Shown here piece after piece: positions 14,996-61,427 of a stretch of 64,000 nucleotides of DNA. The position numbers were made by a program, and so were the translations under genes. Within the stretch, counting starts at the first letter, position 1, and every line of letters begins with the position of its first letter. Where the stretch lies: NCBI RefSeq assembly GCF_040427915.1, contig NZ_JBETXJ010000002.1:1-64000 (forward strand), written 5' to 3'. Source of the DNA: Gardnerella vaginalis (lineage in GTDB: Bacteria > Actinomycetota > Actinomycetes > Actinomycetales > Bifidobacteriaceae). The notes below the pieces were generated by a model that saw only the letters and a list, made by a program, of their open reading frames with translations, was not told where the DNA came from and searched no databases.

Positions 14996-16027
14996 TTACG
15001 CCTTACGGCTCTTTGGATCCAACGCATCTTTTACAGCGTCGCCCATCATAATAAAGGCGAGAACAGTAATAGCGAGCGCAATAGACGGATAGAACAAAAC
15101 TTCTGGATTTGTAGTAAGAACATTCCTAGCGGTAGAAATATCTACACCCCAGCTAACGGTCGTAGTTGGCAAACCAATACCAAGGAAGCTAAGTGTCGCT
15201 TCCAAAACAATGTAAGAACCAAGGGATGTTGTTCCTACAACAATGATTGGAGCCAGCGAGTTTGGAATAATATGACGGAAAAGATTACGCATTGGAGTTG
15301 AACCTAAAGCTGTAGAAGCCGTATTAAACTCAAGATTCTTGGATTCCATAACGGCACTTCTTGCGATTCGAGCAACGCCTACCCATCCAAAGAGAACCAT
15401 AACAAACACGATTTTCCAAATCGACTTAGATGTGCGGAACATTTGCAAAACTACGATTGCGCCCAACAGCATTGGTAGAGCCAGGAAGATATCGGTGATT
15501 CGGCTGAGAATCGCATCAATCCATCCGCCGAAGAACCCAGCTAAAGCACCAATTAACGAGCCAACTAACACAACCAAAGCGGTTGCTAGCAAACCAACGC
15601 TTAGAGATGTACGAGTTCCGTATACGACTCGAGCATAAATATCACAGCCTTGCATATCAAATCCGAACGGATGCGCAGCAGAAGCCGGCTCAAGCGAATG
15701 TTCCAAAACGCAATAATTAGGATTGTGCTTTGTAAGAACACTTGGGAAAAGTGCAACAAAAATAATCGCAATAATCAAAACTGCAGAAACAATAAACAGT
15801 GGGTTTCTGCGCAAACTACGCCAAGCATCTGCCCACATGCTTGTAGCTGGAGCAGATTCATCTACGGAATCCACTTCTTGAAGAGGTGTATCGTCAAGAG
15901 GTGCTACGTAACGTTCCTGACCAGGTAGCGTATTGTATTTTGAAGCGGAAAAGTCGCCAGCAACCATAGTTGCAGCTGCTGTAGCATTATTTGTAGTCAA
16001 ATTATTTTCCATCAAATTATCTTCCAT
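14996..16027 (-). CDS. Peptide ABC transporter permease, DppC/OppC type
   Basis: The 343-residue permease has an unusually long polar N-terminus (about 70 residues), a first hydrophobic segment (PLFIVSAVLIIAIIFVALF) and the core binding-protein-dependent permease domain with the coupling motif ALGSTPMRNLFRHIIPNS. It pairs with the DppB-type permease upstream. AAGGAG precedes the ATG. The first ten codons are a 15-bp tandem duplication (MEDNLMENNL) that copies the start codon. The N-terminal tail contains VAGDF, encoded by the dispersed 20-mer motif (15953-15966). Confidence 0.93.
   Translation of the reverse strand: MEDNLMENNLTTNNATAAATMVAGDFSASKYNTLPGQERYVAPLDDTPLQEVDSVDESAPATSMWADAWRSLRRNPLFIVSAVLIIAIIFVALFPSVLTKHNPNYCVLEHSLEPASAAHPFGFDMQGCDIYARVVYGTRTSLSVGLLATALVVLVGSLIGALAGFFGGWIDAILSRITDIFLALPMLLGAIVVLQMFRTSKSIWKIVFVMVLFGWVGVARIARSAVMESKNLEFNTASTALGSTPMRNLFRHIIPNSLAPIIVVGTTSLGSYIVLEATLSFLGIGLPTTTVSWGVDISTARNVLTTNPEVLFYPSIALAITVLAFIMMGDAVKDALDPKSRKA
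15953..15966 (-). repeat. Dispersed uptake-like motif, copy 1
   Basis: The minus strand reads GGTTGCTGGCGACTTTTCC here, inside the disordered N-terminal tail of the OppC-type permease, encoding VAGDFS. Confidence 0.85.
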
Positions 16028-16041
16028 AATGTCTGCTCTCC

Positions 16042-16968
16042 TTACGCGTAGCGAATGCGCGGATCTAGAGCCGCGTACAACATGTCAACAAGAAGATTGC
16101 TGACTACAAATATCAACATAAGAAGCGTAACTATAGAAACAACAAGGTTTCCTTCTCCTTTTAGTATTCCCTGATACGTAAGGAATCCAACGCCATGAAT
16201 GTTGAAGATTGTTTCGGAAATCATAGCGCCGCCCATAAGAGCGCCCAAATCCTGACCTAAGAATGTAACAACAGGAATAAGCGAATTGCGCAAAATATGT
16301 CGAACAATAACAGAGCTTTCTTTTAAGCCCTTTGCGCGAGCCGTTCGAACATAATCGAGAGATATGTTTGACGAAACTTCCGACCTTGTAAGTCGAATAA
16401 TATACGCCATTGACACGGATCCAAGAACTATTGCAGGAAGAAGAAGATCATAGAATCCAGGATTATTGCTTGCTGTAACAGGCATAATATGCCACTTAAC
16501 ACCAAACACGTATTGTCCAATAAAGCCAGTGACAAATGTTGGCACAGAAATAAGAAGAAGTGATACAACCAGAATTACACTGTCATACCACTTCCCTTTC
16601 TTTAAGCCAGAGATTATACCAAAAGCTACGCCGAACAAGGCTTCAAAGGCAAACGCCATCAACGCAAGCTTAATGGTTACTGGAAATGCGCGACCAATTT
16701 CGTCAATTACTGGCTGACCAGCAAAAGTATGACCGAAATCAAGAGTCAAAGCATTTTTCAAAAACAGCAAATACTGAATAATAAATGGCTTATCCAAGTT
16801 ATACTCGGCACGAATCTGCGCTTCAACCGCATGGTTAATTGGCTTATCTCCAAACATTGCTTTTACTGGGTCTCCAGGCAAAGCAAACACCAAAGCGTAC
16901 ACCAACAATGTTGTGCCGAGAACCACAGGAATCATCTGCAGAACACGACGCAGAACATATTTACCCAT
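16042..16968 (-). CDS. Peptide ABC transporter permease, DppB/OppB type
   Basis: The 308-residue protein starts MGKYVLRRVLQMIPVVLGTTLLVY, the typical first helix of OppB/DppB. About five more hydrophobic segments follow, with the coupling loop VRTARAKGLKESSVIVRHILRN split by a short helix. It forms the membrane channel with the DppC-type partner 14 bp downstream. AAGGAG precedes the ATG. A long hairpin lies between this gene and the upstream binding-protein gene. Confidence 0.94.
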   Translation of the reverse strand: MGKYVLRRVLQMIPVVLGTTLLVYALVFALPGDPVKAMFGDKPINHAVEAQIRAEYNLDKPFIIQYLLFLKNALTLDFGHTFAGQPVIDEIGRAFPVTIKLALMAFAFEALFGVAFGIISGLKKGKWYDSVILVVSLLLISVPTFVTGFIGQYVFGVKWHIMPVTASNNPGFYDLLLPAIVLGSVSMAYIIRLTRSEVSSNISLDYVRTARAKGLKESSVIVRHILRNSLIPVVTFLGQDLGALMGGAMISETIFNIHGVGFLTYQGILKGEGNLVVSIVTLLMLIFVVSNLLVDMLYAALDPRIRYA

Positions 16969-17066
16969 TGGTTTCTCCTTATATAATTACTTAAAAATTC
17001 GCAGAGCACACACCCAACTTTTGTGGCTTGCATATTGATTTAACCCAACCCAAGTAAAAACACAAA

Positions 17067-17127
17067 GTGCTGCCTCGAATAGCGATAGAATTTTGCAATT
17101 TTATTCGCCATTCGAAGGCAGCAGCAC
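17067..17127 (-). terminator. Intercistronic hairpin between binding protein and permease genes
   Basis: GTGCTGCC pairs with GGCAGCAGCAC and inner segments TCGAA/TTCGA extend the stem. T-rich sequence follows on the minus strand. It could partly terminate transcription or protect the upstream message, giving more binding protein than permease, which is common in such operons; the effect is inferred. Confidence 0.65.
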
Positions 17128-17194
17128 GTTTTTACATGCTATTTAATTATGATTTATTTTTTACTATAGCTACTTGATCTTCGATCTTAGATCT

Positions 17195-18826
17195 TTACTT
17201 GTGGAGCTTGTAGTAAAGTGGCATATTCTGCCAATCCATTACAAAGCCCTTCAAGGTTGGAACCATAACAGCCTTAGCGTTCGAGTAGAACAGTGGGATG
17301 TATGGAAGATCCTCAAGAAGAATCTCGTTAGCTTGCTGATAAAGCTTAGTTGCCTCAGCTGGCTGAGAAGAAGCAGCCTTCTTAAGCAAATCATCAAACT
17401 TAGAATTCTTGTAATCAGCTTCGTTGGAGCCATTTCCATCTGCAGCAACAGAAGCAAATTCCTGAGTCAAGTAGTTTTCTGGGCTTGGGTAATCTGGCAT
17501 CCAGCCTGCACGCCATGCACCCTTAATCTGACGCTGTTCGCATGCGTTACGGAACTCTTGGAATGTTGGAACTGGAGTGGTTTCAGCATTGATACCAAGA
17601 TGGTTCTTGAGGGAGTTTACAACTGCATCGAACACAGACTTAGCATTACCATCAGCGTTGTAAGTAAAGGTAAGAGGACCATCATACTTAGAGATCTTGT
17701 CTGCCTTTGCCCAAAGTTCCTTAGCCTTTTCTGCGTTAAACTTAAGGTTTTCGTGTCCCTTAAGATCAGCCTTGTAGCCTGGAGTCAAAGGAGAAGTGAA
17801 CTCATTTGCAGGAGATGCAGTACTATTAAGAACCTTCTTGATGATGGTTTCACGGTCGATTGCCATAGAAACAGCTTGACGACGCAAGCGGCCTTCTTCG
17901 GTAGTTACATCGAAGTGTGGCAATTTTGCAGGAATACCGAACTGCTGGATTACAGAACCTGGACGGTTGTATGCCTTAACAGTGGTGTCCTTTTGGAAAG
18001 TCTTGGTTTCAGTATCTGGAATGTTATCGGTCATATCAAGATTGCCAGACTGAACATCGCGGTAAGCAGCGGTTCCATCGGTGTAAATCTTGAAGGTAAC
18101 ACCATCATTCTGAGCCTTACGTGGGCCATCGTAATCTGGGTTCTTTACAACTTCAATCTGCTTGTTGTGATCCCAGGACTTAAAGAGGTATGGACCAGAA
18201 GAAACTGGCTTTTCGCCATAAGCCTTTGGATTCTTGTAGAAGGATTCTGGAAGAGGAGCAAATGCAAGGTAACCAACCTTAATAGCAAACACAGAATCTG
18301 GCTGGTTCAAATCGACAGTAAAGGTGTACTTGTCTACAACCTTCAAGCCAGAAAGCTGCTCGTCGCCCTTAGTGTCATTCTTCTGCAAGTCTTCGTAGCC
18401 CTTAATTGTCTGGAAGAAGGAAGCGCACTTCTGAGCATTCTTAGCGTTTGCTACGAAGCTCCAAGCCTTGGTGAAGCTTTCTGCGGTGATTGGTGTGCCG
18501 TCACTAAACTTCTTATCTTTCTTAAGCTTAACAGTGTACTGAGTTGCATCAGCGTTTGGAGTTACGCTCTCGGCATCTTCGTTTACTGTATTGCCCTTTT
18601 CGTCAAAAGTGACCAACGTGGAGTTGACCAGCACAGCAGGACGGGCGCCAGCATTTTCGTTAATATTTCCTGGAACAAGCTCGTTCTGAGGCTCGGAGTC
18701 GTTTACGGTAATAACAACCTTGCCACCATTTGTTTGAGCGGTCTTCGAAGCAGAAGAACCGCATCCACCGAGCAGCATAGCAACCGAGCAAGCAGCTGCG
18801 GCAAAAAGTAATGCCTTATTCTTCAT
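17195..18826 (-). CDS. Peptide ABC transporter substrate-binding lipoprotein
   Basis: The 543-residue protein has a lipoprotein signal (MKNKALLFAAAACSVAMLLG then the lipobox GGC at about residue 22) and the SBP_bac_5 fold of OppA/DppA, with FSDGTPITAESFTKAW, KPVSSGPYLF, AVSMAIDRETI and a C-terminal YIPLFYSNAKAVMVP. It would capture oligopeptides outside the membrane for the downstream permeases and ATPase. AGGAG is seven bases upstream of the ATG. The complementary strand also carries a 545-codon open frame, which I take as a shadow. Confidence 0.95.
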   Translation of the reverse strand: MKNKALLFAAAACSVAMLLGGCGSSASKTAQTNGGKVVITVNDSEPQNELVPGNINENAGARPAVLVNSTLVTFDEKGNTVNEDAESVTPNADATQYTVKLKKDKKFSDGTPITAESFTKAWSFVANAKNAQKCASFFQTIKGYEDLQKNDTKGDEQLSGLKVVDKYTFTVDLNQPDSVFAIKVGYLAFAPLPESFYKNPKAYGEKPVSSGPYLFKSWDHNKQIEVVKNPDYDGPRKAQNDGVTFKIYTDGTAAYRDVQSGNLDMTDNIPDTETKTFQKDTTVKAYNRPGSVIQQFGIPAKLPHFDVTTEEGRLRRQAVSMAIDRETIIKKVLNSTASPANEFTSPLTPGYKADLKGHENLKFNAEKAKELWAKADKISKYDGPLTFTYNADGNAKSVFDAVVNSLKNHLGINAETTPVPTFQEFRNACEQRQIKGAWRAGWMPDYPSPENYLTQEFASVAADGNGSNEADYKNSKFDDLLKKAASSQPAEATKLYQQANEILLEDLPYIPLFYSNAKAVMVPTLKGFVMDWQNMPLYYKLHK

Positions 18827-21037: not shown

Positions 21038-21097
21038 GGAACTCCATAGTATCTTCGAGCCTCGACTCGGAAGAATAATTGAAAAGTCAAATCAAAG

Positions 21098-21565: not shown

Positions 21566-21568
21566 TTT

Positions 21569-25102: not shown

Positions 25103-25606
25103 TCAAAGCATAACAGCGATGATTGCAGATGCAGCTAATACGGGTACGAACGGGATTTTATTTTGTTCATTTTGAACAAGATGCACGCGGAAAAATCGCA
25201 AGCAGACTTTAGAGCAGATTTTCCACACTAAAATCCAAATTAATCCAAATATTCCAACTAATGCAAACCAGTAGATTATGCAATCAAATCCAAATAGCGC
25301 CAAAGCTTGAGCAATCATAGAAGCGCACGTAACGTCGCCAAATCCAAGTGCTCCGCGCACGCAAAGTTTTTGCACCAAAACGTAGAATGCAAAAACTGAT
25401 ACTGCAAAAAGCCAGCCACGTAAAAGAAAATTAACATTATGAAAAGTAATCATCGAAAAAATAAGGTTTGCGGCAGATTGCGCAAAAGCAGCTAGTACAA
25501 TCCAAAGTCTAGGAACAACGCGGCTGATTAAATCCGTTACGCACACTGCAATCATGCATATAAGCGTTGGTGTTGCAAATAAACAAGTAACAATAAACTG
25601 ACTCAT
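25103..25606 (-). CDS. Prepilin peptidase-like A24 aspartic protease
   Basis: The 167-residue polytopic membrane protein has the two Asp-bearing motifs of A24 (type IV leader) peptidases: CVTDLISRVVPRLW near residue 25 and GALGFGDVTCAS (GxGD) near residue 95. It lacks the N-terminal methyltransferase domain of PilD, so it resembles the short TadV/CpaA type that processes Flp or type IV pilins. No pilin gene is in the window. The gene sits inside a 34-bp perfect inverted repeat, which suggests that it may have moved as a unit. Confidence 0.82.
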   Translation of the reverse strand: MSQFIVTCLFATPTLICMIAVCVTDLISRVVPRLWIVLAAFAQSAANLIFSMITFHNVNFLLRGWLFAVSVFAFYVLVQKLCVRGALGFGDVTCASMIAQALALFGFDCIIYWFALVGIFGLIWILVWKICSKVCLRFFRVHLVQNEQNKIPFVPVLAASAIIAVML

Positions 25607-34504: not shown

Positions 34505-34518
34505 CGGTTGCTGGCGAC
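34505..34518 (+). repeat. Dispersed uptake-like motif, copy 2
   Basis: CGGTTGCTGGCGACTAATCC is found in non-coding DNA between rpsD and galT, which shows the motif is not kept for a peptide. Confidence 0.85.
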
Positions 34519-34606
34519 TAATCCCAAACAAAAGTTAATACATCACAACATATCACTATCTTTTAGCATAATTCAGACTGCTTTTGATGCAAACACGCTA
34601 TAACTT

Positions 34607-38532: not shown

Positions 38533-41385
38533 TTACAATTTCTCAATCGGTGCAACTCTTAACATAAGTCTTTTTACACCATCCGAACCAAAGTCAACTG
38601 TAATAATTGAGTTTCTTCCCTTGTCTTGCGTTTTAAGAACAGTTCCAAGACCGTAAGTGTCGTGAGAAATTTTGTCACCTTCGTGGAAATCATTGATGTT
38701 TAAGTGATTGTCCTTTTCTTGCAAACTCTGTTTTTTGTAAGACAATGATGATGAAGATGACTGCAAATTTGATGTGGATGATTGATACTGGTAGGATGCA
38801 CTAGATTTTCTGGCGATTCGAGTGGTGACTTTTCCAGACTTTGAACCATATGAATTGCCATATGAATTAGAGCCATAAGACTTTGAACCATAAGACTTGC
38901 CATAATGCGATTTTCTGTAACTCGATCCGCCGTAAGTGGTGTACGAATCATCGTCCCAACCGCCATCGCTTCCAAAGTCACTGTCAAAATCGCGGTCAAA
39001 ATCACTACCCGCTCCCCTAAGCCCAGCTCGCATAACAGATGCCTCAGTGCGCTTCCAAGAAATCAAATCCGCAGGAATCTCGTCCAAAAACTGGCTTTGA
39101 ATCATTTCCGCAGACTTGCCCCATTGTGATCTCTCAGCCGCCCAAGTGACATACAAAATCTTCTTAGCGCGAGTTATACCAACGTATGCAAGACGACGCT
39201 CCTCGCAAAGCTCCTTTTGATTGTCAACACAACGCGAATGAGGGAAAGTGCCCTGCTCCATTCCAGTCAAAAACACAACAGGATATTCCAAACCTTTAGC
39301 TGTATGAAGTGTCATAAGCGTAACTTTTCCAGTATCTTCGCCCTGGTCTGGAAGCTGATCCGAATCTGCAACTAAAGCCGTAGTCTCCAAAAAACCAGCA
39401 ACATTAGCATCAGGCGTATTCTGTTCATATTCAGCTGCAACCGATTGCAATTGAGACAAATTATCTACTCTAAATTCGTCTTGAGGGTCCTTAGACTCTC
39501 GCAAATCCTGCAACAATCCGCTTTGATTAAGCACGTTCTCTACAACCTTAGAAGGCTTGGAATCGTTAGCTTCCATAAAGTCGATAAGCGAAGTCATAAG
39601 ATCCCTAAAACTCTTAAGCGCATTAAAAGTTCGAGATGAAATACCAATTTGTTCTGCAATCTTATCTATCTGATTAAGAGTAGACCAAAAACTTATAGAA
39701 TTTTCTTTTGCATAAGACGTAATCTGCGACTCAGCACGTGCTCCAAGACCACGCTTTGGAACGTTTAAAATGCGGCGCATATTGACATCGTCATCAGGAT
39801 TTGCAATAGATTGCAAGTAAGCAAGCGCATCTTTGACTTCGCGACGTTCATAGAACTTAGTTCCGCCAACAAGCTGATACGGTAAACCTGACTTAATAAG
39901 CGCATCTTCCAAGCTACGAGATTGCGAATTTGCGCGATACATAATCGCAATATCCGAGTAGTTTATGCCATCTTCGCCACGCAAACGCGCGATTTCTTGA
40001 GCAACCCAAGAAGCCTCACCTTGCGCATTATCAGCAACATAACCAATAATCGGCGAACCTTTACCTAAAGAAGTCCACAACTTTTTAGGCTTTCGATTAG
40101 CGTTGTTGGAGATTACAGCATTTGCAGCATCCAAAATGGTTTGCGTAGAGCGATAATTCTGCTCCAACATAATTGTTGTAGCGTTTGGAAAATCCTGCTC
40201 AAAGTCTTGAATATTGCGAATATCTGCACCGCGGAAAGCATAAATCGACTGGTCTGAATCACCAACAACCGTGATTGAAGACTGCGGAAGTTGAGTGGAA
40301 TCTGGTGAAACTGATGAATCTGGTAAATCTGCGGAATAATCATCCACACCTGCATCATCCACACCTGCAAGCTCACGAATCAACACGTATTGCGCGTGAT
40401 TAGTATCCTGATACTCGTCAACCAAAATGTAGCGGAACTTTCGTCTATAATACGCACTAACTTGCGGATTTTGGCGCAAAAGCCTAACCGTTAACATAAT
40501 CAAATCGTCAAAATCAACAGCATTCGACACGTTAAGCCTATTTTGATACTCCGCGTAAACAGCAGCGTAAAGCGCATCAGCATTGCCAGCAGCATTAAAG
40601 CTAGATGCACCAGATACAGACGCGCCTAGCTTATAATCTGGAGCACAATTTTTAAGATTTTCCTGCCAAGTAACCAAATTATTTTTAAAATCAGATATCT
40701 TAGACAATAAAAGTTTAGGCGTAAACTTTTTAATGTCGATATTCAATTCAGATTCGATTATTTTGACAAGACGCTCACAATCCGAAGAATCGTAGATAGA
40801 AAAGCCCGATTTTAAGCCGATTGAATCACCATGAGCGCGAAGAATCTTAACGCAAGCAGAATGGAAAGTGGAAACCCACATGCTGTTTGCATTATTGCCA
40901 ATTAGGTTCGCAAGACGCTCACGCATCTCAGCTGCAGCCTTGTTAGTAAACGTGATTGCAAGAATCTGACTCGGCCACGCCTTGCGATTAGCCAAAATCC
41001 AAGCAATTCGACGCGTAAGAACACGCGTTTTGCCACTGCCTGCACCTGCACCGATTAAAAGCGCGGGCCCCTCGTATTGAACAGCCTTATATTGCTGAGG
41101 ATTTAGACCTTCTAAGAGTGATTGTGGATTGATTTCGGGTAGGTCGGAAGATTGTGCGGATGTTTGAGCGTATTGGGCAGCGGAAGAAGATTGAGCTGTT
41201 TGGGAAGATTGTACGGAATTTGAAGATTGCACGGAAAAGTCGCCAGCAACCGTAGAAGCAGAAACTTCGCTCGTCATATCTTTATTAATAAGCGCATTAC
41301 TCTGCTCGCTGTCATCTTCTGGATTGCCAAACAAATCAAAATCATAACCGTACTTGCTCAAAAGCCCCTCGCTCCTGTGTTTCAA
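38533..41385 (-). CDS. pcrA: UvrD/PcrA-type DNA helicase
   Basis: The 950-residue protein has all superfamily 1A motifs: LNPQQYKAVQYEG, GAGAGSGKTRVLT, ITFTNKAAAEMRERL, ILVDEYQDTNHAQY, VVGDSDQSIYAFRGA, LEQNYRST, VTLMTLHTAKGLEYPVVFL and EERRLAYVGITRAKK. It unwinds DNA in repair and plasmid or stalled-fork processing. Two regions exceed the usual length near 750: a Ser/Gln-rich N-terminus (about residues 20-85) and a Tyr/Gly/Ser-rich stretch (about 805-895, SSYRKSHYGKSYGSKSYGS). The N-terminal region contains one dispersed motif copy reading VAGDF. Confidence 0.96.
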   Translation of the reverse strand: MKHRSEGLLSKYGYDFDLFGNPEDDSEQSNALINKDMTSEVSASTVAGDFSVQSSNSVQSSQTAQSSSAAQYAQTSAQSSDLPEINPQSLLEGLNPQQYKAVQYEGPALLIGAGAGSGKTRVLTRRIAWILANRKAWPSQILAITFTNKAAAEMRERLANLIGNNANSMWVSTFHSACVKILRAHGDSIGLKSGFSIYDSSDCERLVKIIESELNIDIKKFTPKLLLSKISDFKNNLVTWQENLKNCAPDYKLGASVSGASSFNAAGNADALYAAVYAEYQNRLNVSNAVDFDDLIMLTVRLLRQNPQVSAYYRRKFRYILVDEYQDTNHAQYVLIRELAGVDDAGVDDYSADLPDSSVSPDSTQLPQSSITVVGDSDQSIYAFRGADIRNIQDFEQDFPNATTIMLEQNYRSTQTILDAANAVISNNANRKPKKLWTSLGKGSPIIGYVADNAQGEASWVAQEIARLRGEDGINYSDIAIMYRANSQSRSLEDALIKSGLPYQLVGGTKFYERREVKDALAYLQSIANPDDDVNMRRILNVPKRGLGARAESQITSYAKENSISFWSTLNQIDKIAEQIGISSRTFNALKSFRDLMTSLIDFMEANDSKPSKVVENVLNQSGLLQDLRESKDPQDEFRVDNLSQLQSVAAEYEQNTPDANVAGFLETTALVADSDQLPDQGEDTGKVTLMTLHTAKGLEYPVVFLTGMEQGTFPHSRCVDNQKELCEERRLAYVGITRAKKILYVTWAAERSQWGKSAEMIQSQFLDEIPADLISWKRTEASVMRAGLRGAGSDFDRDFDSDFGSDGGWDDDSYTTYGGSSYRKSHYGKSYGSKSYGSNSYGNSYGSKSGKVTTRIARKSSASYQYQSSTSNLQSSSSSLSYKKQSLQEKDNHLNINDFHEGDKISHDTYGLGTVLKTQDKGRNSIITVDFGSDGVKRLMLRVAPIEKL
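41239..41252 (-). repeat. Dispersed uptake-like motif, copy 3
   Basis: The minus strand reads CGGTTGCTGGCGACTTTTCC in the Ser/Gln-rich N-terminus of PcrA, encoding TVAGDFS. Confidence 0.85.
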
Positions 41386-45255: not shown

Positions 45256-45275
45256 GGATAAGTCGCCAGCAACCG
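45256..45275 (-). repeat. Dispersed uptake-like motif, copy 4 (exact 20-mer)
   Basis: The minus strand reads CGGTTGCTGGCGACTTATCC in the gap between mvaA and mvaS, the same 20 bases as two copies in the xerC gene. Confidence 0.9.
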
Positions 45276-45327: not shown

Positions 45328-46620
45328 ATGAGCAATACTTCAAAAAACACGCCAAAAGTCGGAATCGACCGCATAACTTTCGCAACTCCAAATTGCTATC
45401 TAAGCATGAAAGATCTGGCGATCGCGCGCGGAATAGACCCGAACAAATTCACGATCGGAATCGGTCAAAGCCAGCAAGCGGTGCCGCCAAATCATCAAGA
45501 TATCGTAACACTTGGCGCTCAAGCTGCGCTGCCGCTGCTGCCGTACATCGATAACAGCCGCCTCAAAATGGTGATTGTTGGCACAGAAAGCGGCGTCGAT
45601 GCCAGCAAATCCAGTGCGCTCTACATTCACCGACTGTTGGATCTCAGTCCGTGGGTGCGCTGCGTTGAAGTAAAAGAGGCATGTTATGGCGGAACTGCGG
45701 CGCTTATGATGGCTCGTGACTACGTTTTGACGCATCCTAGCGCGCAAGTTTTGGTGATTGCTGCAGACATTGCGCGCTACGGCGTGGGAACTCCTGGCGA
45801 GGTGACGCAAGGCGCTGGTGCTGTGGCGATGCTTGTAAGCGAGAATCCGCACGTGTTGCAAATCAACGACGACAGCGTTGTAAAATCGGCGGAAATCCAA
45901 GATTTTTGGCGACCCGTATATCAAAGCACAGCTTTGGCGCGCGGAAAGTTTTCAACCGAGCAATACATTCGCATGTTCTGCGACGTGTGGCAGCGGTACA
46001 GCGCGGAAAACGACTGCAATTTCAACGATTTTGAGGCGATTTGCTTCCATCTTCCATACACAAAAATGGGGCTTAAGGCGCTTCAAGCTGGGTTGGAGGA
46101 AAATTCGGGCGCGTCTCTTACGGGCGATACACGCGAACATCTTCTTGCTCGATACCAAGACAGCACACAATATAGTCGCCGAATCGGCAATATTTACACT
46201 GGTTCACTCTATTTAGGATTAATTTCTTTACTTGATTACGATTATTTTAGGAATTCTTGCGATTCATCGACGGTTGCTTGCGACTTATCTTCTGCAACGC
46301 GCACAAACGAATCGCAGACATGCCTGTCTCCCTTACTCCCAGGCCAAAAAATCGGCTTGTTCTCATACGGTTCTGGCGCTGTAGCAGAATTCTTTAGCGC
46401 AACACTTGTTCCAGACTGGCGTAGCGCGCTGTTTTCTAATCAGCACTTAAAGTCGCTAAACAATCGCACGCAATTAAGCGTTTCGCAATACGAGGAGATG
46501 TTCAACAGCGCGGCGCCTTATTCTCCGCAAGATTTTGTAAGCAGCCAGGAGAATCGAAGTGGCGCTCGATTCGTGCTTGACTCCATCAAGTCTCAAGAGC
46601 GTAACTATCGTTCTATCTAA
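45328..46620 (+). CDS. mvaS: HMG-CoA synthase
   Basis: The 430-residue protein has the bacterial HMG-CoA synthase layout: KVGIDRITFATP, the general base Glu87 in GTESGVDASKS, the nucleophile Cys119 in KEACYGGTAALM and the His in FHLPYTKMG. It adds acetyl-CoA to acetoacetyl-CoA. An Ser/Thr-rich insert at about residues 310-335 (SSTVACDLSSATRTNES) contains a one-mismatch copy of the dispersed motif. AGGAAACC precedes the ATG. Confidence 0.95.
   Translation: MSNTSKNTPKVGIDRITFATPNCYLSMKDLAIARGIDPNKFTIGIGQSQQAVPPNHQDIVTLGAQAALPLLPYIDNSRLKMVIVGTESGVDASKSSALYIHRLLDLSPWVRCVEVKEACYGGTAALMMARDYVLTHPSAQVLVIAADIARYGVGTPGEVTQGAGAVAMLVSENPHVLQINDDSVVKSAEIQDFWRPVYQSTALARGKFSTEQYIRMFCDVWQRYSAENDCNFNDFEAICFHLPYTKMGLKALQAGLEENSGASLTGDTREHLLARYQDSTQYSRRIGNIYTGSLYLGLISLLDYDYFRNSCDSSTVACDLSSATRTNESQTCLSPLLPGQKIGLFSYGSGAVAEFFSATLVPDWRSALFSNQHLKSLNNRTQLSVSQYEEMFNSAAPYSPQDFVSSQENRSGARFVLDSIKSQERNYRSI
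46271..46284 (+). repeat. Dispersed uptake-like motif, variant in mvaS
   Basis: CGGTTGCTTGCGACTTATC differs from consensus at one base (G to T) and encodes TVACDL in a linker of HMG-CoA synthase. Confidence 0.6.
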
Positions 46621-47901: not shown

Positions 47902-47909
47902 ATTAGCTG

Positions 47910-48725
47910 TTACGACTCAGGCGCATCCTCCACGCGCGGCGCACCATTAATATCGCGATGAATCCCTTGCATTTGCGCCTCAATTGCCTGCAAATTCTGC
48001 GCGCATTCAAGCAGCGTCTTAGAATGCTCCGCCAACTTTGCGTCCGGCAAATCAGCCTTATAGCGCAACGCGTGCTCCAAACTCGCCCAATAATCCATTG
48101 CGATTGTACGGAATTGCACCTCCACCGGCGTGTAATGTGCACCCGACGACAAAAACACTGGCACAGCGTAAATCACATGCAAACTGCGGTACCCATTCGG
48201 CTTTGGGTTTTTAATATAATCCTTAACCTGCAAAACTTGAATATCCGTTTGCTTAGAAAGATATTGCGCAACCGCGTACACGTCGTCGCGATAGTTGCAA
48301 ATCACGCGGATTCCAGCCACGTCGAACAGGTTGTCACGAATCGAACGCGTTGATATGCTTAGGTTTCTGCGGCGCAGCTTCTCAAAAATCGAGTGCACGG
48401 ATTTTAGTCGCCGCTCCATGTGATGCACGGGATTGTGCGAAAATCGCACCTGAAACTCGCCGTCCAAAATCTCCAGCTTCGTGCTTATTTCGTACATCGC
48501 GCCTTCGTACACTTGCATCATGTTTACGAATTCGTCCATTTGATCGGGCGGAAGATGAGGCGTTTCGCTTTTTATAGATGATTTTTGCGCGGACTTTTCG
48601 TCAGCGGTTGCTGGCGACTTTTGCGCCTCTGGCGCAGCGGTTGCTGGCGATTCACCATCCCCCGCTCCTTGCAAGCTGGCGTAAAGTTCGGCCAAATTTA
48701 AACGATTATGACGATCAAGTATCAC
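47910..48725 (-). CDS. Small (p)ppGpp synthetase (RelA/SpoT domain)
   Basis: The synthetase domain is clear: YEGAMYEISTKLEILDGEF, RLKSVHSIFEKLRRR, DVAGIRVICNYRDDVY, NPKPNGYRSLHVIYAVP, VEVQFRTIAMDYWASLEH. It should make (p)ppGpp from ATP and GDP or GTP; there is no hydrolase domain, as in RelP/RelQ types. The start is uncertain. The frame is open to ATG 48878, but the extra 51 residues are encoded largely by a dispersed GC-rich repeat, so I prefer GTG 48725. A linker after about 20 residues holds two SPAT peptides from the dispersed motif. Confidence 0.85.
   Translation of the reverse strand: MILDRHNRLNLAELYASLQGAGDGESPATAAPEAQKSPATADEKSAQKSSIKSETPHLPPDQMDEFVNMMQVYEGAMYEISTKLEILDGEFQVRFSHNPVHHMERRLKSVHSIFEKLRRRNLSISTRSIRDNLFDVAGIRVICNYRDDVYAVAQYLSKQTDIQVLQVKDYIKNPKPNGYRSLHVIYAVPVFLSSGAHYTPVEVQFRTIAMDYWASLEHALRYKADLPDAKLAEHSKTLLECAQNLQAIEAQMQGIHRDINGAPRVEDAPES
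48605..48618 (+). repeat. Dispersed uptake-like motif, copy 5
   Basis: CGGTTGCTGGCGACTTTTGC lies in the N-terminal linker of the (p)ppGpp synthetase gene, antisense to it, and gives KSPATA in the protein. Confidence 0.85.
48638..48651 (+). repeat. Dispersed uptake-like motif, copy 6
   Basis: CGGTTGCTGGCGATTCACC, 33 bp from copy 5 in the same gene, gives ESPATA in the protein. Confidence 0.85.
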
Positions 48726-48788
48726 GGTTCTTATTCTACTCGTAATTTTGTTATAAATCTGATAATCGCCTGAGAATATGCATGCGCT

Positions 48789-48840
48789 CCGACCTGCCTG
48801 AGCGCTTAAAGCGTAGCGCGAAAAGGCAATTCGTAGCGCA
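48789..48840 (+). repeat. GC-rich repeat at start of synthetase frame
   Basis: CCGACCTGCCTGAGCGCTTA onward, with GCGCGAAAAGGCAATTCGTAG, matches parts of the mosaics at 47763 and 62491. It lies within the upstream extension of the (p)ppGpp synthetase frame. Confidence 0.75.
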
Positions 48841-48871
48841 CTAAAATCATCAACAATTGCTTGCATAATTA

Positions 48872-48899
48872 ATGACATTTACGTTACATCATATATAAT
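48872..48899 (+). promoter_or_regulatory. Putative promoter of RelB/YoeB-like module
   Basis: ATGACA, 16 bp, then TATAAT lies 62 bp upstream of the antitoxin ATG; the surrounding ATATATAATTAT sequence is partly symmetric and could also hold the autorepression operator. Confidence 0.45.
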
Positions 48900-50890: not shown

Positions 50891-51898
50891 CTACCTCGCG
50901 CGCGGATGACTCATAACATACGCCTCCATAAGCGCATCTGGGCTTATATGCGTATAAATTTGCGTTGTTGTAACGGACGCATGACCAAGCAGCTCCTGCA
51001 CAGTGCGAACATCGGCGCCTCCTGAAATCAAATGCGTTGCAAATGAATGTCGAAGCGTGTGAGGATGCAATTCTTTGCCAATTTTAGCCATTTTGCCCGC
51101 ACGCGAAATCGCCTCCCACGCGGATTGGCGAGACAGTGATTTTCCACGTTTATTTAGGAAAATCACGTGAGAATTTGCGGATTTTGACGATGAGTTTAAG
51201 GATGAGTTGAGTCGCGACTTTGCGGTTGCTTGCGACTTTTGCGCGCGACTTGCAAGAATCGGCCTAGCTTTATCTAAATAATCGCGCAACGCACGAACCG
51301 CGCACTTTCCAATCGGTACAAGTCTCTGCTTTTGCCCCTTGCCACTAAGCCGCACAACTGATTCTGCCAAATCAATGTCCTCGAATTTTAAGCCAACCGC
51401 CTCGCTCACGCGCGCGCCAGTCGCGTACAAAAATTCCACAAGCGCACGGTCTCGCAAAGAGACGGCATCCGTACTACCAAAGCCGCCAGCCGCATCGATT
51501 ACGCGCTCCACTTCGCTAATACTTAGTACGTCTGGAAGATGCTCCGCTTGCTTTGGCGCTTTGACTTCTGCAGAAGGGTCGCTTGCGATTTGCGCGTTGG
51601 AAAGCATGAATTTGTTCCACTCGTGGATGCTTGCGATTCGCCGCGCAATCGTGCGAGGCCCTAAGTTTTGTGATGCCATTGCTTGTGATGCCATTGCGCG
51701 CACGTATTCTTCAATATCTAGTTGCGTGATTTTGCTAACATCGTTGATTTTTCGGGCTTCGCGCAGCCAGTTCGTGTATTTTGTAAGATCCGACTCGTAA
51801 GCTTCAACGGTTTTTGGAGAAAGCCCGCGCTCCACGCTTATGTGGTTTAGAAACTGCTGGATTTTTGGGGAAAATGGCGATTGCTGCGATTCGGTCAT
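50891..51898 (-). CDS. xerD: Tyrosine recombinase XerD
   Basis: The 335-residue recombinase has an N-terminal SAM-like core-binding domain (SVERGLSPKTVEAYESDLTK) and the catalytic residues in ATGARVSEAVGL, HTLRHSFATHL, LGHASVTTTQIYTHI. With XerC it resolves chromosome dimers at dif. It is about 35 residues longer than usual because of a Ser/Ala/Lys linker (ASRAQKSQATAKSRLNSSLN and on), which is encoded over a one-mismatch copy of the dispersed motif (51223-51236). Confidence 0.93.
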   Translation of the reverse strand: MTESQQSPFSPKIQQFLNHISVERGLSPKTVEAYESDLTKYTNWLREARKINDVSKITQLDIEEYVRAMASQAMASQNLGPRTIARRIASIHEWNKFMLSNAQIASDPSAEVKAPKQAEHLPDVLSISEVERVIDAAGGFGSTDAVSLRDRALVEFLYATGARVSEAVGLKFEDIDLAESVVRLSGKGQKQRLVPIGKCAVRALRDYLDKARPILASRAQKSQATAKSRLNSSLNSSSKSANSHVIFLNKRGKSLSRQSAWEAISRAGKMAKIGKELHPHTLRHSFATHLISGGADVRTVQELLGHASVTTTQIYTHISPDALMEAYVMSHPRAR

Positions 51899-51922
51899 AT
51901 GTCAATTATATGCCGCTCGAAT

Positions 51923-53008
51923 CTACCACTTCGAGTTGCGTAATGCGCAAACAACCGCAGAGTCGCTAAACGTCACGCCAACAATCTGTTCGCCGCTTTG
52001 CGCGCTTTGAATCAGCTGACTTTGCCAATCACCAGCACAATCAAGCGCAAATCGAAGCTCGCGCAAATCGCCAGCCGACTCATCGCAAGCAACCGCGCGC
52101 TCCTTATACTTGTACTCGCGCCAAGAATCAGCCTTAGCAAAAAACGCGCGCTCATCACACTCATCGCGCTCATCGCTAGCAACCGCAGAATCGCCATCGC
52201 TCCCCTCAAGCATCTTCTTCGCAAAACTCAACTCCTCAATAACACTACCCAGCAAATCCGCCACATTTCGCCGATTTTCCGCAACCATTGCACGCGTGCG
52301 ATCTGGATCCGTAAGCGCCACTCGCGTCATATCTCGCCAAGAACCAGCCGACATTTGCAACGCAACATTGCGATTTTCGCTTCCGCACAAAACGTTCGCC
52401 AGCGCTGTAGAAACAACGTGCGGCATGTGCGAAATCAGCGCCGCCGAAGCATCGTGTATAGAATCGTTCAACACAAGCGCGCGATTGCCACACAACGCCA
52501 CAATAACGCGCAAAACCGCCAAAAACCGCCAAAAATCACTATTCTCATCAACGCTAACTGCCCAAAGTGCGCCGTCCAGCAGCTGCGCGCTAGACGCCTG
52601 CCAACCCGTAAACTCGCTTCCAGCCATAGGATGCGCGCCAATGTAGCAATCACCAAGCCCCGCGGCCTTAACCTGCTCGCGCACAAGCCCCTTAACGCTA
52701 CCAACATCCGTCAAAGTTGTGTGCTGCCTGTTGATTCCGCGCGAAATCTCGCCAAGAACTTCTGGCATAGAGGCAAGCGAATTGCATAAAATCAAAACAT
52801 TTGGCTGCAAGCGCGCAAGCTCCGCAACGCTTTCAACGCAAGTGATTCCAAGCGCCCTTGCTTCTTTATACATTGTTTGATGGCGATTATACGCGTACAC
52901 TTTGCAGGAGCCAGTCGCAGCCAAACGCTTTGCGATTGATCCGCCAATAAGTCCAAGTCCAACAATACCAACAGAAAATTTTTGAGAAAATCCAGCATCT
53001 TCTACCAT
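51923..53008 (-). CDS. tyrA: Prephenate dehydrogenase
   Basis: The 361-residue protein has the NAD-binding motif VGIVGLGLIGGSIAKRLA, DVGSVKGLV, GAHPMAGSEFTGW and HDASAALISHMPHVVS of TyrA enzymes, which make 4-hydroxyphenylpyruvate for tyrosine. It overlaps pheA by seven bases, so both branch enzymes from prephenate are coupled. A polar region at about residues 275-320 is specific to this protein and contains two loose variants of the dispersed motif (near 52083 and 52172). Confidence 0.94.
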   Translation of the reverse strand: MVEDAGFSQKFSVGIVGLGLIGGSIAKRLAATGSCKVYAYNRHQTMYKEARALGITCVESVAELARLQPNVLILCNSLASMPEVLGEISRGINRQHTTLTDVGSVKGLVREQVKAAGLGDCYIGAHPMAGSEFTGWQASSAQLLDGALWAVSVDENSDFWRFLAVLRVIVALCGNRALVLNDSIHDASAALISHMPHVVSTALANVLCGSENRNVALQMSAGSWRDMTRVALTDPDRTRAMVAENRRNVADLLGSVIEELSFAKKMLEGSDGDSAVASDERDECDERAFFAKADSWREYKYKERAVACDESAGDLRELRFALDCAGDWQSQLIQSAQSGEQIVGVTFSDSAVVCALRNSKW

Positions 53009-54160: not shown

Positions 54161-54216
54161 CTTATTTAGCACCGCTTATTTAGCACCGCTTATTTAGCAC
54201 CGCTTATTTAGCACCA
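54161..54216. repeat. 14-bp tandem repeat, 4 copies, over a stop codon
   Basis: CTTATTTAGCACCG repeats four times. The fourth unit contains the last codons and stop of the membrane-protein gene at 54204, so the array copies that gene end downstream. Confidence 0.95.
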
Positions 54217-54638: not shown

Positions 54639-54647
54639 TTTAAGGAA

Positions 54648-56570: not shown

Positions 56571-56636
56571 TACAAACCTCTTCCGTTTTATTTAGCCAAA
56601 CTTAAACGAGTTTACTCGCGGCTTTAGACACGCCGC

Positions 56637-57413: not shown

Positions 57414-57424
57414 GTTTCTATCTC

Positions 57425-58702
57425 CTATTCTTCGGTTGCTGGCGATTCGTCCGTCTTAGCTAAACGACGCTCAATCGCAGCCATCAAATGATCTACGATT
57501 TGCGGCACGCCAATCTCCTCAATAAGCTCGTTAAAGAATCCGCGCACAACAAGCTTTCTAGCATCCGCTTCACTCACTCCGCGAGATTGCAAGTAAAACA
57601 GCTCCTCGTCGTCGAATCTGCCTACAGAACTTGCGTGACCTGCGCCAATAATATTGCCGTTTTCGATTTCCAAATTCGGCTCCGAATCAGCAATCGCGCC
57701 AGGAGTTAGCACCAAATTTCGGTTCAACTCGTACGAATCCGTGCCAGGAGCTTCTGGCTTAATCAGCGCGTTTCCAACCCACGTAGAATGCGCTCCTTTG
57801 CCGTAAAGCGCGCCCTTATACACTACTCGCGACTTGCATTCTGGGTGATTGTGCACAACCATCGTGCGATGCTCAACATGCTCGCCTGGGTCCACAAAAT
57901 ACATGCCAAGCATGTTCAAATCGCCCTTTTCGCCGCCAAAATCCTGATCCATGCGGATTCGCACAACGTCTCCGCCAAGAGTGACCATCGTGTGGCGCAA
58001 AGAAGCACCCTCACCCACGTGAATCCTATGATTTCCAACGTGCTTGCTGCCTGAATCCCACTCTTGAATGAACGTTGTAGAAACATGCGCATGCTTTCCA
58101 AGAATGATTTCCACGCCTTCTGCAAGCTTTGCAACTCCCGTGTGTTCTACGATAATATCCGCGTTTGTTCTGGGATCAGCTTCAATCACTAAGTGCAAAG
58201 CGTCTAATGATTTCGCAGCGTCTAGCGATTGCAAGTTATTCACATGAATTTGCAATATTACTGGCTTTGTAACTTCGCCACAAACATGCAAAACGTACGC
58301 CGACTTTGCAGAATTCCACGCAACAGCGGCCACGCGATCCGAAGTCTTCATTTCAGTGTGCGGAGCCTCACTTTTCGGCAAAATTTGCAGCGTTGCCTGC
58401 GAATCGCCATCAACGCCTTTTAGCGCTACTGTAACGTTATTAGACGGCTCAAAGCTCTCAAAAAACTCGGAAATTCGCTCAACTGGCGTATATCGCCAAT
58501 CTTCCTGCTTTCTAGTTGGAATCGCAAAGTCTTGCACGTTAAAAGAGCGCACGGATTTATCTGCACTAGAAGGCATTGCAGCAGGAATTGCGTAAGGATC
58601 GTTAGGGTCTGCCACAGGAATATTAATTTCTTTTTCCGTCATTTTATTGCCTAAATTATCGCTCAAATTATCGCTCAAATTCTTTTTCAAATCTTCGCTC
58701 AT
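57425..58702 (-). CDS. sufD: Fe-S assembly protein SufD
   Basis: The 425-residue protein has the SufB/SufD beta-helix core (VEHRTMVVHNHPECKSRVVY, GKGAHSTWVGNALI, GRFDDEELFYLQSRGVSE). It overlaps the end of sufB. The N-terminus has a 12-bp tandem repeat giving NLSDNLSDNL, and the last residues DESPATEE come from a dispersed motif copy, so both ends look like added sequence. Confidence 0.94.
   Translation of the reverse strand: MSEDLKKNLSDNLSDNLGNKMTEKEINIPVADPNDPYAIPAAMPSSADKSVRSFNVQDFAIPTRKQEDWRYTPVERISEFFESFEPSNNVTVALKGVDGDSQATLQILPKSEAPHTEMKTSDRVAAVAWNSAKSAYVLHVCGEVTKPVILQIHVNNLQSLDAAKSLDALHLVIEADPRTNADIIVEHTGVAKLAEGVEIILGKHAHVSTTFIQEWDSGSKHVGNHRIHVGEGASLRHTMVTLGGDVVRIRMDQDFGGEKGDLNMLGMYFVDPGEHVEHRTMVVHNHPECKSRVVYKGALYGKGAHSTWVGNALIKPEAPGTDSYELNRNLVLTPGAIADSEPNLEIENGNIIGAGHASSVGRFDDEELFYLQSRGVSEADARKLVVRGFFNELIEEIGVPQIVDHLMAAIERRLAKTDESPATEE
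57433..57446 (+). repeat. Dispersed uptake-like motif, copy 7
   Basis: CGGTTGCTGGCGATTCGTCC lies at the very 3' end of sufD, giving ESPATE before the stop codon. Confidence 0.85.
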
Positions 58703-60246
58703 CACCCCACGGATCCTTCCATTTGCAATTCCACAAGACGATTAAGCTCCAAAGCATACTCCATCGGAAGCTGGCGACTAATCGGCTCCACAAATCCGCG
58801 CACAATCATTCCCATAGCCTCTTTTTCTTCAAGCCCTCGACTCATCAAGTAGAAAAGCTGATCTTCGGAAACCTTGGAAACAGTTGCCTCGTGAGCCATA
58901 GAAACGTTATCTTCGCGCACGTCAACATGCGGATAAGTGTCAGATCTCGAAAAATCGTCAACAAGCAAAGCATCGCACACAACCGAAGAGCTGGAGCCGC
59001 TAGCACCCTTAACAATCTTCACAAGACCTCGGTAAGCTGAGCGTCCACCGCCGCGCGAAATCGACTTAGCAACAATCGTGGAACTCGTGTGCGGAGCCAA
59101 ATGAATCATCTTTGCACCCGTATCCTGATACTGACCGCGGCCAGCAAAGCTCAAAGACATAGTCTCCGCTTTTGCATACGGCTCGGCGAGAATACAAGCA
59201 GGATACTTCATAGTAGCCTTGGAGCCAATGTTTCCATCAACCCACTCCATTGTGCCGCCTTCGCGCACGTAAGCTCGCTGAGTTACCAAGTTATACACGT
59301 TATTTGACCAGTTTTGTACAGTTGTATACCGCACTCGCGCATGCTTTTCCACAACGATTTCAACGTTTGCAGCGTGAAGAGAATCCGTGGAATAAATCGG
59401 AGCCGTGCAACCTTCAACGTAATGCACGTATGATCCTTCGTCTGCAATAATCAAAGTTCGCTCAAACTGACCCATGTTTGGCGTATTAATGCGGAAGTAA
59501 GCCTGAAGCGGAATATCCACATGCACGCCTTTTGGCACGTATACGAACGAGCCGCCACTCCAAGCCGCTGTGTTAAGAGCCGCAAACTTGTTGTCGTCAA
59601 CTGGAATCACAGTTGCAAAATACTTTTTTACAAGCTCCGGATACTTTTGAACTGCTGTATCCGTATCCACAAAAATCACGCCTTGAGCTGCTAAGTCCTC
59701 GCGAATCGAATTGTAAATAACTTCCGACTCGTACTGTGCTGCAACACCTGAAACTAAGCGCTTTTTCTCCGCTTCTGGAATGCCAAGCCTATCGTAAGTT
59801 TTGCGAATATCTTCTGGCAAATCATCCCAAGTTTTCGCTTGATCGTGAACTGGGCGCACGTAGTACTTAAAATCGTCTGCGTCAAAACCGCTTAAATCCA
59901 CACCCCAATCAGGCATCGGCTTTTGCAGAAACGCGCGATAGCCTTGCAAACGAAGGTTTAGCATCCACTCTGGCTCGTGTTTGTCGGCAGAAATTGCACG
60001 AACAACCGACTCATCAATACCCTTTTTAGCAGCTTCGCCTGCAGCATCAGAATCATGCCAGCCATAATTGTACTCACCAAATTCGGCAACGATTTGCTCG
60101 TCTTGGCGAATTTTCTCTTCATTTACGCGAGCGCGATCTGCCACATACTGGCTCATTTCAACGTCTGCGGCGCTGGATTCGTTTTGATTCGCTACATTCT
60201 CATTCAATGATGCGCTTGATTCAGGCTTATTTGAATCATCAACCAC
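58702..60246 (-). CDS. sufB: Fe-S assembly protein SufB
   Basis: The 514-residue protein has the SufB core: [60 protein letters not shown] (each within limits) and [18 protein letters not shown]. It is the scaffold on which the Fe-S cluster forms. The start is GTG with GGAGGG eight bases before. The first 35 residues are Ser/Asn-rich. It begins the sufB-sufD-sufC operon. Confidence 0.97.
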
Positions 60247-60389
60247 TGTTTTACCCTCCTATCAAGCTTATAAGTCGATTATACATTTAGCCACGCAACG
60301 CACGCTCCGAGATTTTTGACTTTGCGTCATTTTGCCACCAAACGTGACTCAAATCACATCTTTGCATTCTCTGCATAAACATTGTCTTA

Positions 60390-61427
60390 CTACGCACGCG
60401 GGAAGGCTTGCGAGTAACGCTGTTTAAGAGCCTGAATAGAAACATGCGTGTAGCGCTGCGTTGTGTTAAGCGATGAATGCCCCAAAAGCTCCTGAACCTC
60501 GCGAAGGTCCGCTCCCCCGTTGAGCATATGCGTTGCAGCACTGTGGCGAAGTGCGTGCGGCGCCACATCGGGCACGTTTGCAGCCGCAGCGGCAGCGTGC
60601 ACAATATCCCTAACAACGCGCTGATCTATACGTTTTGCGCGCACGCCCAAAAACAACGCTTGCGAGCTTGCGGCAGATTTTTCTTGCAGCGCATTTCGCC
60701 CACAGTCAAGCCACTTTTTACACGCTTTTGCAGCAGGAACACCGAATGGTACTACACGCTGCTTGTTTCCCTTACCTGTAACTTTTACAGTGTGATTTTC
60801 AAAATCCATATCTTGCACATTAAGACCCGTAAGCTCCCCCACTCGCATGCCCGTGGCATATAAAAGCTCTAAAATCGCAGCGTTTCTGAGTGCGATTGCA
60901 TACTCTTGTTTCGTTTTTATTTGCGATTTTAGTGGCGTATTTTCTTGATGCTCGGTTGCTGGCGACTTATCCACAGCATAATCTTCAGAACGATCCTCAG
61001 CGCAATCCAACAATTTTTCCGCCTGCGCCTCGTCTAAAACCGTAGGAAGCTCATTAGCAATCTTAGGTGTATTAAGAATTTGCGCAGGATTCGCACTAAT
61101 TAAACCAACGTGTGTAGTCCATGCAAAAAAACCGCGCACGGCTACCACTTTGCGAGCCAAACTAGAGCGCGCGTGATTCTTATTAAGCCAATACATCCAT
61201 TGGCGCAGAACGCTTGTAGACACAGAATTCAAATCAGAAAAATCGTTTACACCACACCATTCAAGGCATTGCAAAACATCTACCCTATATGCGCGAAGAG
61301 TGCGACTTCCAAGGCCTTTATTTGAACGCAAATAATCAATATACCGATCGGATAAGTCGCCAGCAACCGTTGATGATACTAAACCATTGTCAAATAATAA
61401 ATCATTATTATTACGACTGCTAGCCAT
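60390..61427 (-). CDS. xerC: Tyrosine recombinase XerC
   Basis: The 345-residue recombinase has the core-binding domain (YIDYLRSNKGLGSRTLRAYR) and catalytic residues in ATGMRVGELTGLN, HALRHSAATHMLNGG, LGHSSLNTTQRYTHV. It is the expected partner of XerD at dif. An N-terminal tail (about 20 residues) and an insert near residues 150-175 (AEDRSEDYAVDKSPATEHQE) are extra to the family, and each carries an exact copy of the dispersed 20-mer, reading VAGD and SPAT. Confidence 0.93.
   Translation of the reverse strand: MASSRNNNDLLFDNGLVSSTVAGDLSDRYIDYLRSNKGLGSRTLRAYRVDVLQCLEWCGVNDFSDLNSVSTSVLRQWMYWLNKNHARSSLARKVVAVRGFFAWTTHVGLISANPAQILNTPKIANELPTVLDEAQAEKLLDCAEDRSEDYAVDKSPATEHQENTPLKSQIKTKQEYAIALRNAAILELLYATGMRVGELTGLNVQDMDFENHTVKVTGKGNKQRVVPFGVPAAKACKKWLDCGRNALQEKSAASSQALFLGVRAKRIDQRVVRDIVHAAAAAANVPDVAPHALRHSAATHMLNGGADLREVQELLGHSSLNTTQRYTHVSIQALKQRYSQAFPRA
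60953..60972 (+). repeat. Dispersed uptake-like motif, copy 8 (exact 20-mer)
   Basis: CGGTTGCTGGCGACTTATCC lies inside xerC on the strand opposite the gene, giving DKSPATE in an insert of the protein. Confidence 0.9.
61350..61369 (-). repeat. Dispersed uptake-like motif, copy 9 (exact 20-mer)
   Basis: The same 20 bases occur in the opposite orientation near the xerC start, giving TVAGDLS in the N-terminal tail. Confidence 0.9.

Follow-up and report, generated by a model that had tools for sequence, protein, structure and literature searches.

The DNA uptake sequences (DUS) of the Neisseriaceae and the uptake signal sequences (USS) of the Pasteurellaceae are exact words that are dispersed in both orientations, in genes and gaps and in the tolerant parts of proteins. 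They use few reading frames and differ as dialects between clades, and DUS also form inverted terminator pairs. In Neisseria and Haemophilus, uptake sequences occur roughly once per kb and have cores of 9-12 bp. To our knowledge, all uptake sequences belong to Gram-negative families. Here, we analyze a word of ~20 bp, CGGTTGCTKGCGAYTTWTCCGC, that is dispersed over a stretch of 64,000 nucleotides (the window; positions 1 to 64,000 of contig NZ_JBETXJ010000002.1) from Gardnerella vaginalis. The Gardnerella word resembles DUS and USS in its dispersal, placement, few reading frames and clade dialects, with one inverted pair that recalls the DUS terminators, and differs from them in its length, in being 10-20 times sparser than the densities known for them, in its depletion near the replication terminus and in its occurrence in a Gram-positive actinobacterium. 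An uptake sequence is the best fit to the observations described below, in the guarded sense that the word "probably" works like one rather than is one, and our confidence in this reading falls a little short of even.

The word was counted in the window and in its genome of origin (G000; 1,640,757 bases in three contigs). An earlier note on the window had reported nine exact copies of the core 12-mer, GGTTGCTGGCGA, and all nine are present, with positions shifted by one base, the note being 0-based and our 12-mer re-count 1-based (15954, 41240, 45263 and 61357 on the minus strand; 34506, 48606, 48639, 57434 and 60954 on the plus strand). Three copies share all 20 bases, as reported (45260, 60953 and 61354). 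Six further sites carry one mismatch (12125, 52083 and 52173 on the minus strand; 31648, 46272 and 51224 on the plus strand). They include the one-mismatch forms that the note had placed at 46271 and 51223, as well as the copies at 52083 and 52172 that it had mistakenly called looser. The 15 window sites with at most one mismatch compare with a mean of 0.32 and a maximum of 2 in 100 dinucleotide shuffles.

According to the note, its inference would be refuted by counts near background or by confinement to a single paralogous family. Neither was found. In G000, the exact 12-mer occurs 68 times (39 forward and 29 reverse), against 0 for its reversed control, the 16-mer CGGTTGCTGGCGACTT occurs 99 times at two or fewer mismatches, against 1 for its control, and the copies lie in unrelated genes. 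The genome mean is one exact 12-mer per ~24 kb, and the window is denser. When k-mers from 458 kb of G000 (20 stretches of 20 kb and the window minus its tandem array) were ranked by count multiplied by the log ratio to an order-4 Markov expectation, pieces of the word constituted the top four 12-mers and the top five 10-mers. In 200-kb subsets, an intergenic repeat word outranks the motif in G000 and in the genome G165, and several other words do so in Gardnerella piotii UGent 18.01 (G127).

The anatomy of the word was derived from 55 copies in 609 kb of G000, which were selected on positions 1-16 with the remainder left free. Positions 1-15 are nearly fixed and are followed by a weaker tail, T-W-T-C-C-G-C, to approximately position 22, and a slight TC stands at three and two bases upstream. 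Conservation decays outside approximately -3 to +22, and the further flanks are not common to the copies. Seeds from the right part only (CGACTTATC; 20 copies) recovered the left-part bases in 70-100% of cases, indicating that the word is a single unit. The dyad in the logo is limited, by eye, to CGG...CCG near the ends, and the word is essentially asymmetric. Its forms are named here by the bases at positions 9 (G9 or T9) and 14 (C14 or T14).

The word is restricted to one small Gardnerella clade of four genomes among those tested. In overlapping draws of 61 genomes from the GTDB-style genus and 151 from the family, more than three exact 12-mers occur only in G000 (68), G165 (49), G. piotii G127 (21) and G. 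vaginalis GED7760B (G013; 12). The mapping across Gardnerella and Bifidobacterium genomes that the note had proposed thus reveals enrichment in four Gardnerella genomes, and none in Bifidobacterium at large, as sampled in the family draw, or in the other Gardnerella-type genomes tested. The assignments of G127 and G013 to the named strains rest on identical places or counts. Twelve Gardnerella-type genomes were compared for both the motif and the uptake machinery, four with the motif and eight without. In these eight small genomes, near-matches to the 16-mer number 0-3, compared with 0-2 in controls, and the T9 form 0-2, compared with 0, such that a few stray copies may be present. Seven of the eight match, by counts, the records of G. 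swidsinskii, G. greenwoodii, NR010, 1500E, PSS_7772B, KA00225 and NR047, and one of the 12 genomes (G053) is 75% identical in typA and may lie outside Gardnerella. Among 396 genomes across the phylum, a 19-mer of the word was found in G000 only. The same 19-mer has no match in viral contigs, and a phage origin was rejected on this ground. Comparable words were also sought in motif-free relatives: in 140 kb of G030, three 12-mers reach 4-5 copies and no word occupies five places or more, 200 kb of G138 yielded one weak 12-mer only, and 200 kb of G060 contains several repeat words that are unlike the motif.

The four genomes use different dialects of the word. Among matched 14-mers, the G9 form occurs 64, 49, 22 and 25 times and the T9 form 27, 32, 48 and 33 times in G000, G165, G127 and G013, respectively. 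G9/C14 is the commonest form in G000 and G165, and T9 and T14 are more frequent in G. piotii and GED7760B. The same difference appears at orthologous sites. Of 84 sites in the G000 sequence examined, 22 have no homologous stretch in the G. piotii sequence covered, 12 lie beyond the alignment, 8 are gapped and 42 are aligned, 38 of them with four or fewer mismatches. At these 38 sites, position 9 changes from G in G000 to T in G. piotii 19 times and never from T to G, with G in both at 8 sites, T in both at 8 and G to A at 3. Position 14 changes from C to T 12 times and from T to C once (Fisher p 6e-5). From the G. piotii side, in a search that partly overlaps the first, 30 of 69 sites align with four or fewer mismatches and show 14 T-to-G changes and no G-to-T change. 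A mutational bias was rejected as the cause because the surroundings lean the opposite way: flank substitutions on the same strand comprise 97 G>T and 121 T>G (Fisher p 6e-7 for position 9), and sampled CT[GT]GC contexts elsewhere comprise 4 and 9.

The rest of the core is constrained. When G000 is set against G. piotii, 44 of 470 bases at the ten remaining core positions are different, compared with 726 of 4513 in the near flanks (p 7e-5), counted over 47 sites that include sites with an insertion in the other genome (42 in the gap-free count). The corresponding ratios are 21/320 and 460/2945 from the G. piotii side and 5/220 and 146/2191 between G000 and G165. One-way changes of the same letters across many sites, in a word that is otherwise constrained, would be expected if a trans-acting reader had changed its preference. 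This dialect difference is the strongest new result, and it points to a trans-acting reader of DNA, whose existence we infer from the sequence comparison.

The same comparison bears on a selfish or mutational micro-repeat that was inserted or duplicated into tolerant DNA and has no cellular reader. Some sites are held by lineage-specific insertions, such as that of ~42 bp in oppC, and by clade-specific linkers, and tandem copies 15-27 bp apart exist, which are features that such a repeat would produce. Nevertheless, no constant insert length or common flanks were seen, 42 of the 50 G000 sites with a spanning G. piotii counterpart align gap-free (8 are gapped), and copying alone explains neither the core constraint nor a one-way dialect against the flank trend. 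We consider this explanation improbable. A mobile element or palindromic repeat was rejected, given the absence of a fixed insert, the scant flank conservation and a mostly genic location unlike that of the other G000 repeats tested. Copies of CGGTTGCTGGCG lie in genes in 35 of 42 cases and have a flank consensus of 0.45, compared with 0/22, 0/16, 1/15, 0/9, 0/12, 0/11 and 1/9 in genes and flank consensuses of 0.55-0.78 for the other repeat words tested. The Gardnerella word is thus short, dispersed and repeated like the repetitive extragenic palindromes (REP), the bacterial interspersed mosaic elements (BIME) and the intergenic repeats that resemble miniature inverted-repeat transposable elements, and differs from them in being mainly genic with little flank conservation. 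It shares a location inside coding genes with the Rickettsia palindromic elements, which are long palindromic insertions, whereas the Gardnerella word is short, non-palindromic and mostly aligned gap-free. The other dispersed repeat families of G000 include GAGGGCTGGGTG, GAGATTCGAGATTTTTCG, AAAGTCCACTGGACTTT, GTTGAAAGCACA and AGGTCGTCGCGC, with examples at window positions 62465-63500.

Is the word read as DNA or as a peptide? Among the 55 sampled copies, 43 lie in genes predicted by our own open reading frame and hexamer script, rather than by a standard caller, and 12 lie in gaps (22%, compared with 14% non-coding DNA). The coding copies comprise 20 in sense (xVAGDx), 21 in antisense of the SPAT/SQAT type and 2 in antisense reading RQQ. 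Repeated VAGD and SPAT linker peptides could therefore be mistaken for a DNA motif, and the location of coding copies in hydrophilic linkers and tails would suit such a peptide feature. However, 21 of 27 VAGD occurrences are coded by GTTGCTGGCGAY and the other 6 compare with 5.3 expected from composition, and 17 of 20 SPAT occurrences are coded by TCGCCAGCAACC and the other 3 compare with 2.5 expected. Because other codings occur at chance level only, it is the DNA and not the peptide that is repeated. Moreover, 12 of the 55 sites are intergenic, frames on opposite strands are equally used, and in both main frames the change at position 9 alters the amino acid. The codon control led us to reject the peptide-level repeat for most copies, leaving it a next to negligible chance, and selection on DNA rather than peptide, as the note had proposed, is well supported.

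The word tends to avoid protein domains, and its placement is permissive. In the G000 sample, 35 coding sites were classifiable, and Pfam envelopes enclose 9 of them, compared with 17.5 expected from hand-entered domain coverage values (P ~0.001); the 8 coding sites that were dropped comprise 4 without a Pfam family, 3 unscanned and 1 with an unshown second stretch. At 8 of these 9 sites, the match exceeds the matched part of the profile in length, suggesting inserts; the exception is the PUA domain site 256516. The note's view that coding copies always occupy tails, linkers or inserts therefore holds as a tendency and not as a rule. Its gene names hold at the family level (OppC, UvrD/PcrA, RelA/SpoT, the SUFBD core, two tyrosine recombinases and HMG-CoA synthase). 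The copies examined in the window are as follows.

15951..15966, minus strand: 16-mer with one mismatch, frame MVAGDF; the gene codes for an OppC-type permease (14996-16027, minus), whose N-terminal tail holds the copy.
34505..34520, plus strand: intergenic copy, kept in G165 and in the T9 dialect in G. piotii.
41237..41252, minus strand: exact 16-mer, frame TVAGDF; PcrA/UvrD (38533-41385, minus) has it in its N-terminal tail.
45260..45275, minus strand: exact 20-mer in the gap between the HMG-CoA reductase and HMG-CoA synthase genes.
46271..46286, plus strand: T9 form, frame TVACDL, located at a linker within HMG-CoA synthase (45328-46620, plus).
48605..48620, plus strand: exact 16-mer, reading KSPATA in antisense; a protein with a RelA/SpoT domain (47910-48878, minus) carries it in its N-terminal part; T9 in G165 and G. 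piotii.
48638..48653, plus strand: second copy in the RelA/SpoT-domain protein, with two mismatches, ESPATA; broken in G165 and G. piotii.
51223..51238, plus strand: T9 form, reading KSQATA in antisense; a XerC-type recombinase (50891-51898, minus) carries it in an insert specific to the clade; G9 in G165.
52083..52094, minus strand: 12-mer with one mismatch; prephenate dehydrogenase (51923-53008, minus) has it in its C-terminal tail.
52173..52184, minus strand: another 12-mer with one mismatch, in the C-terminal tail that also holds the copy at 52083 (prephenate dehydrogenase, 51923-53008, minus).
57433..57448, plus strand: copy with two mismatches, antisense, at the C-terminus of a SufB/D-type protein (57425-58705, minus), ESPATE.
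60953..60968, plus strand: exact 20-mer, reading KSPATE in antisense; it lies in the linker that joins the two domains of a XerD-type recombinase (60390-61427, minus).
61354..61369, minus strand: exact 20-mer in the N-terminal tail of the XerD-type recombinase (60390-61427, minus), frame TVAGDL.

The ~42-bp insertion that holds the oppC copy is missing in G165, G. piotii and G030. Other Gardnerella-type loci lack the stretches that contain the linker copy of the XerD-type protein (60953) and the XerC-type copy, or have quite different sequence there, and the tail of the SufB/D-type protein in G. piotii carries tandem T9 copies. Copies in tandem 15-27 bp apart were also seen at G013:C10:3140-3195, G127:C2:479089/479107 and G165:C1:1046717/1046735 and are probably in-frame linker repeats. 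A single inverted pair was seen, at G000:C2:217458-217508 (copies at 217458 and 217493), where it forms a strong hairpin (-28.7 kcal/mol as RNA) and has a G. piotii counterpart at G127:C2:282305-282355.

The word shows no replication polarity. Five parS-like sites and the skew switch place the G000 origin at ~525 kb and its terminus at ~1.33 Mb, and the 68 exact copies divide into 31 leading and 37 lagging (p 0.54). Another sequence-specific DNA transaction, such as a Chi-like signal that steers recombination, a signal that steers a translocase in the manner of FtsK orienting polar sequences (KOPS) or a defense mark, might be in keeping with the copies in AddA/AddB-like, UvrD, Mfd-like and XerC/D-type genes, among others. 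Chi and KOPS are co-oriented with replication, unlike these copies, which are also far too few and too long for either. We give such a transaction only a slim chance.

The distribution along the chromosome appears uneven. Stretches up to 300 kb from the terminus make up 37% of the chromosome. With all four forms taken together, they hold 12 of the 91 copies in G000 and 15 of the 81 copies in G165; these and the following counts were made post hoc, an offset was used to place the terminus in G165, and the two genomes share ancestry and are not independent. By form, the near-terminus copies number 2/52 for G9/C14, 1/17 for T9/C14, 3/12 for G9/T14 and 6/10 for T9/T14 in G000 and 3/39, 3/17, 1/10 and 8/15, respectively, in G165. 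The pooled post hoc values are 3/69 and 6/56 for C14 forms and 9/22 and 9/25 for T14 forms in G000 and G165, respectively. A plain G9 dialect effect was rejected, since the depletion is tied more closely to position 14 and to the total than to position 9. G+C is lower near the terminus, which may favor T14 there.

The terminus pattern fits either less exchange of DNA in this region, if the word serves uptake, or exclusion of the word from the terminus, if it serves a chromosome organizer. In the latter case, which is the main rival explanation, the word would be the binding site of a chromosome-organizing or division-coupling protein of the clade, like Noc, SlmA or MatP, and the distribution of sites would mark the terminus. 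Sites of these proteins are likewise conserved and dispersed in tens, a total of ~50-100 is of the order known for Noc and SlmA, and terminus depletion, suggested here by the post hoc counts and strongest for C14 forms, is also known for these two. The ten constrained core positions suit a protein-binding site, and a co-evolving protein would equally yield a dialect difference. On the other hand, the sites of such dimeric proteins are usually palindromic whereas the Gardnerella word is asymmetric, its T14 forms are not depleted near the terminus, and it is not enriched in the sister species and other Gardnerella-type genomes tested. An organizer site is less likely than an uptake sequence and remains a serious candidate. 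If the reader is an organizer, it would be an unusual one, with asymmetric sites that lie mostly within genes and a fast-changing code.

The uptake reading draws on the features that an uptake sequence is expected to have, namely over-representation, no strand bias, weakly constrained placement, dialects and an uptake machinery of predicted function. In G000, a ComEA-like helix-hairpin-helix protein is encoded directly upstream of ComEC, and a Tad pilus cluster lies at ~C2:600-605 kb (L008 ~9944-14842). ComEA and the Tad pilins are only candidates for the receptor. The Tad/Flp pilus is reportedly needed for transformation in another actinobacterium, Micrococcus luteus. The prepilin peptidase gene that the note had seen in the window is present, with a profile score slightly below the cut-off, and is circumstantial.

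25103..25606, minus strand: prepilin-peptidase-like protein, Peptidase_A24 at 24.3 bits, just below the Pfam cut-off of 26.5.

Several observations weigh against an uptake sequence. Known uptake sequences occur about once per 1-2 kb, compared with ~24 kb per exact 12-mer here, and the ~20-bp word, with its high information, is longer than their 9-12-bp cores. The scarcity of all forms near the terminus (12/91 in 37% of the chromosome) suits a chromosome organizer as well. The machinery does not track the motif: ComEC is present in 12/12 Gardnerella-type genomes, equally in motif-free ones, and one TadA-type ATPase above the cut-off occurs in each of the 12, again including motif-free genomes. 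Competence genes were accordingly rejected as a discriminating feature. Between G000 and G. piotii, identity is 55% for ComEA and 62% for ComEC, compared with 88% for the neighboring HolA; fast divergence of ComEA and ComEC relative to holA also occurs in several motif-free species pairs, and with respect to the motif it is suggestive only. The two readings that the note had proposed, uptake and chromosome organization, thus remain the leading ones. Dialects, permissive placement, lack of polarity and the ComEA/ComEC/Tad machinery speak for uptake, and low density and terminus depletion speak against it.

Under the uptake reading, CGGTTGCTKGCGAYTTWTCCGC would be a self-recognition sequence, most likely the uptake sequence of a transformation system of Tad pilus, ComEA and ComEC, and a trans-acting protein specific for the sequence would read it as DNA. 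DNA from relatives that bears the word would be taken up preferentially, and recombination would then let the word accumulate and persist at sites where the protein and the gene can tolerate it. Both the occurrence of transformation and the identity of the reader with the uptake machinery are inferred. We tentatively propose, with more reserve than for the uptake function itself, that one Gardnerella clade knows its own DNA through a word of ~20 bp and a system of the Tad-pilus/ComEA type, that its dialects have split and that its terminus exchanges less DNA and has few copies of the word, chiefly in T14 forms. If this is true, an uptake sequence in an actinobacterium would represent an independent evolution of DNA self-recognition, and close relatives with and without the word and with differing dialects would provide direct test material. 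Such a sequence might also account in part for gene flow between the Gardnerella species of the vagina. Under either leading reading, a dialect difference across many sites makes the reader worth seeking.

Two minor observations concern palindromes and a tandem array. The G165 counterpart of the copy at 61354 is a perfect palindrome, CGGAAGCTTCCG, that differs from the word at four bases and looks like a template-switch mutation, and the G. piotii counterpart of G000 254521 shows the core of this palindrome, GGAAGCTTCCGAC. Window positions 1 to ~5900 consist of a tandem array of ~342-bp units, in which 17 copies are recognizable through one common word at 342-bp steps.

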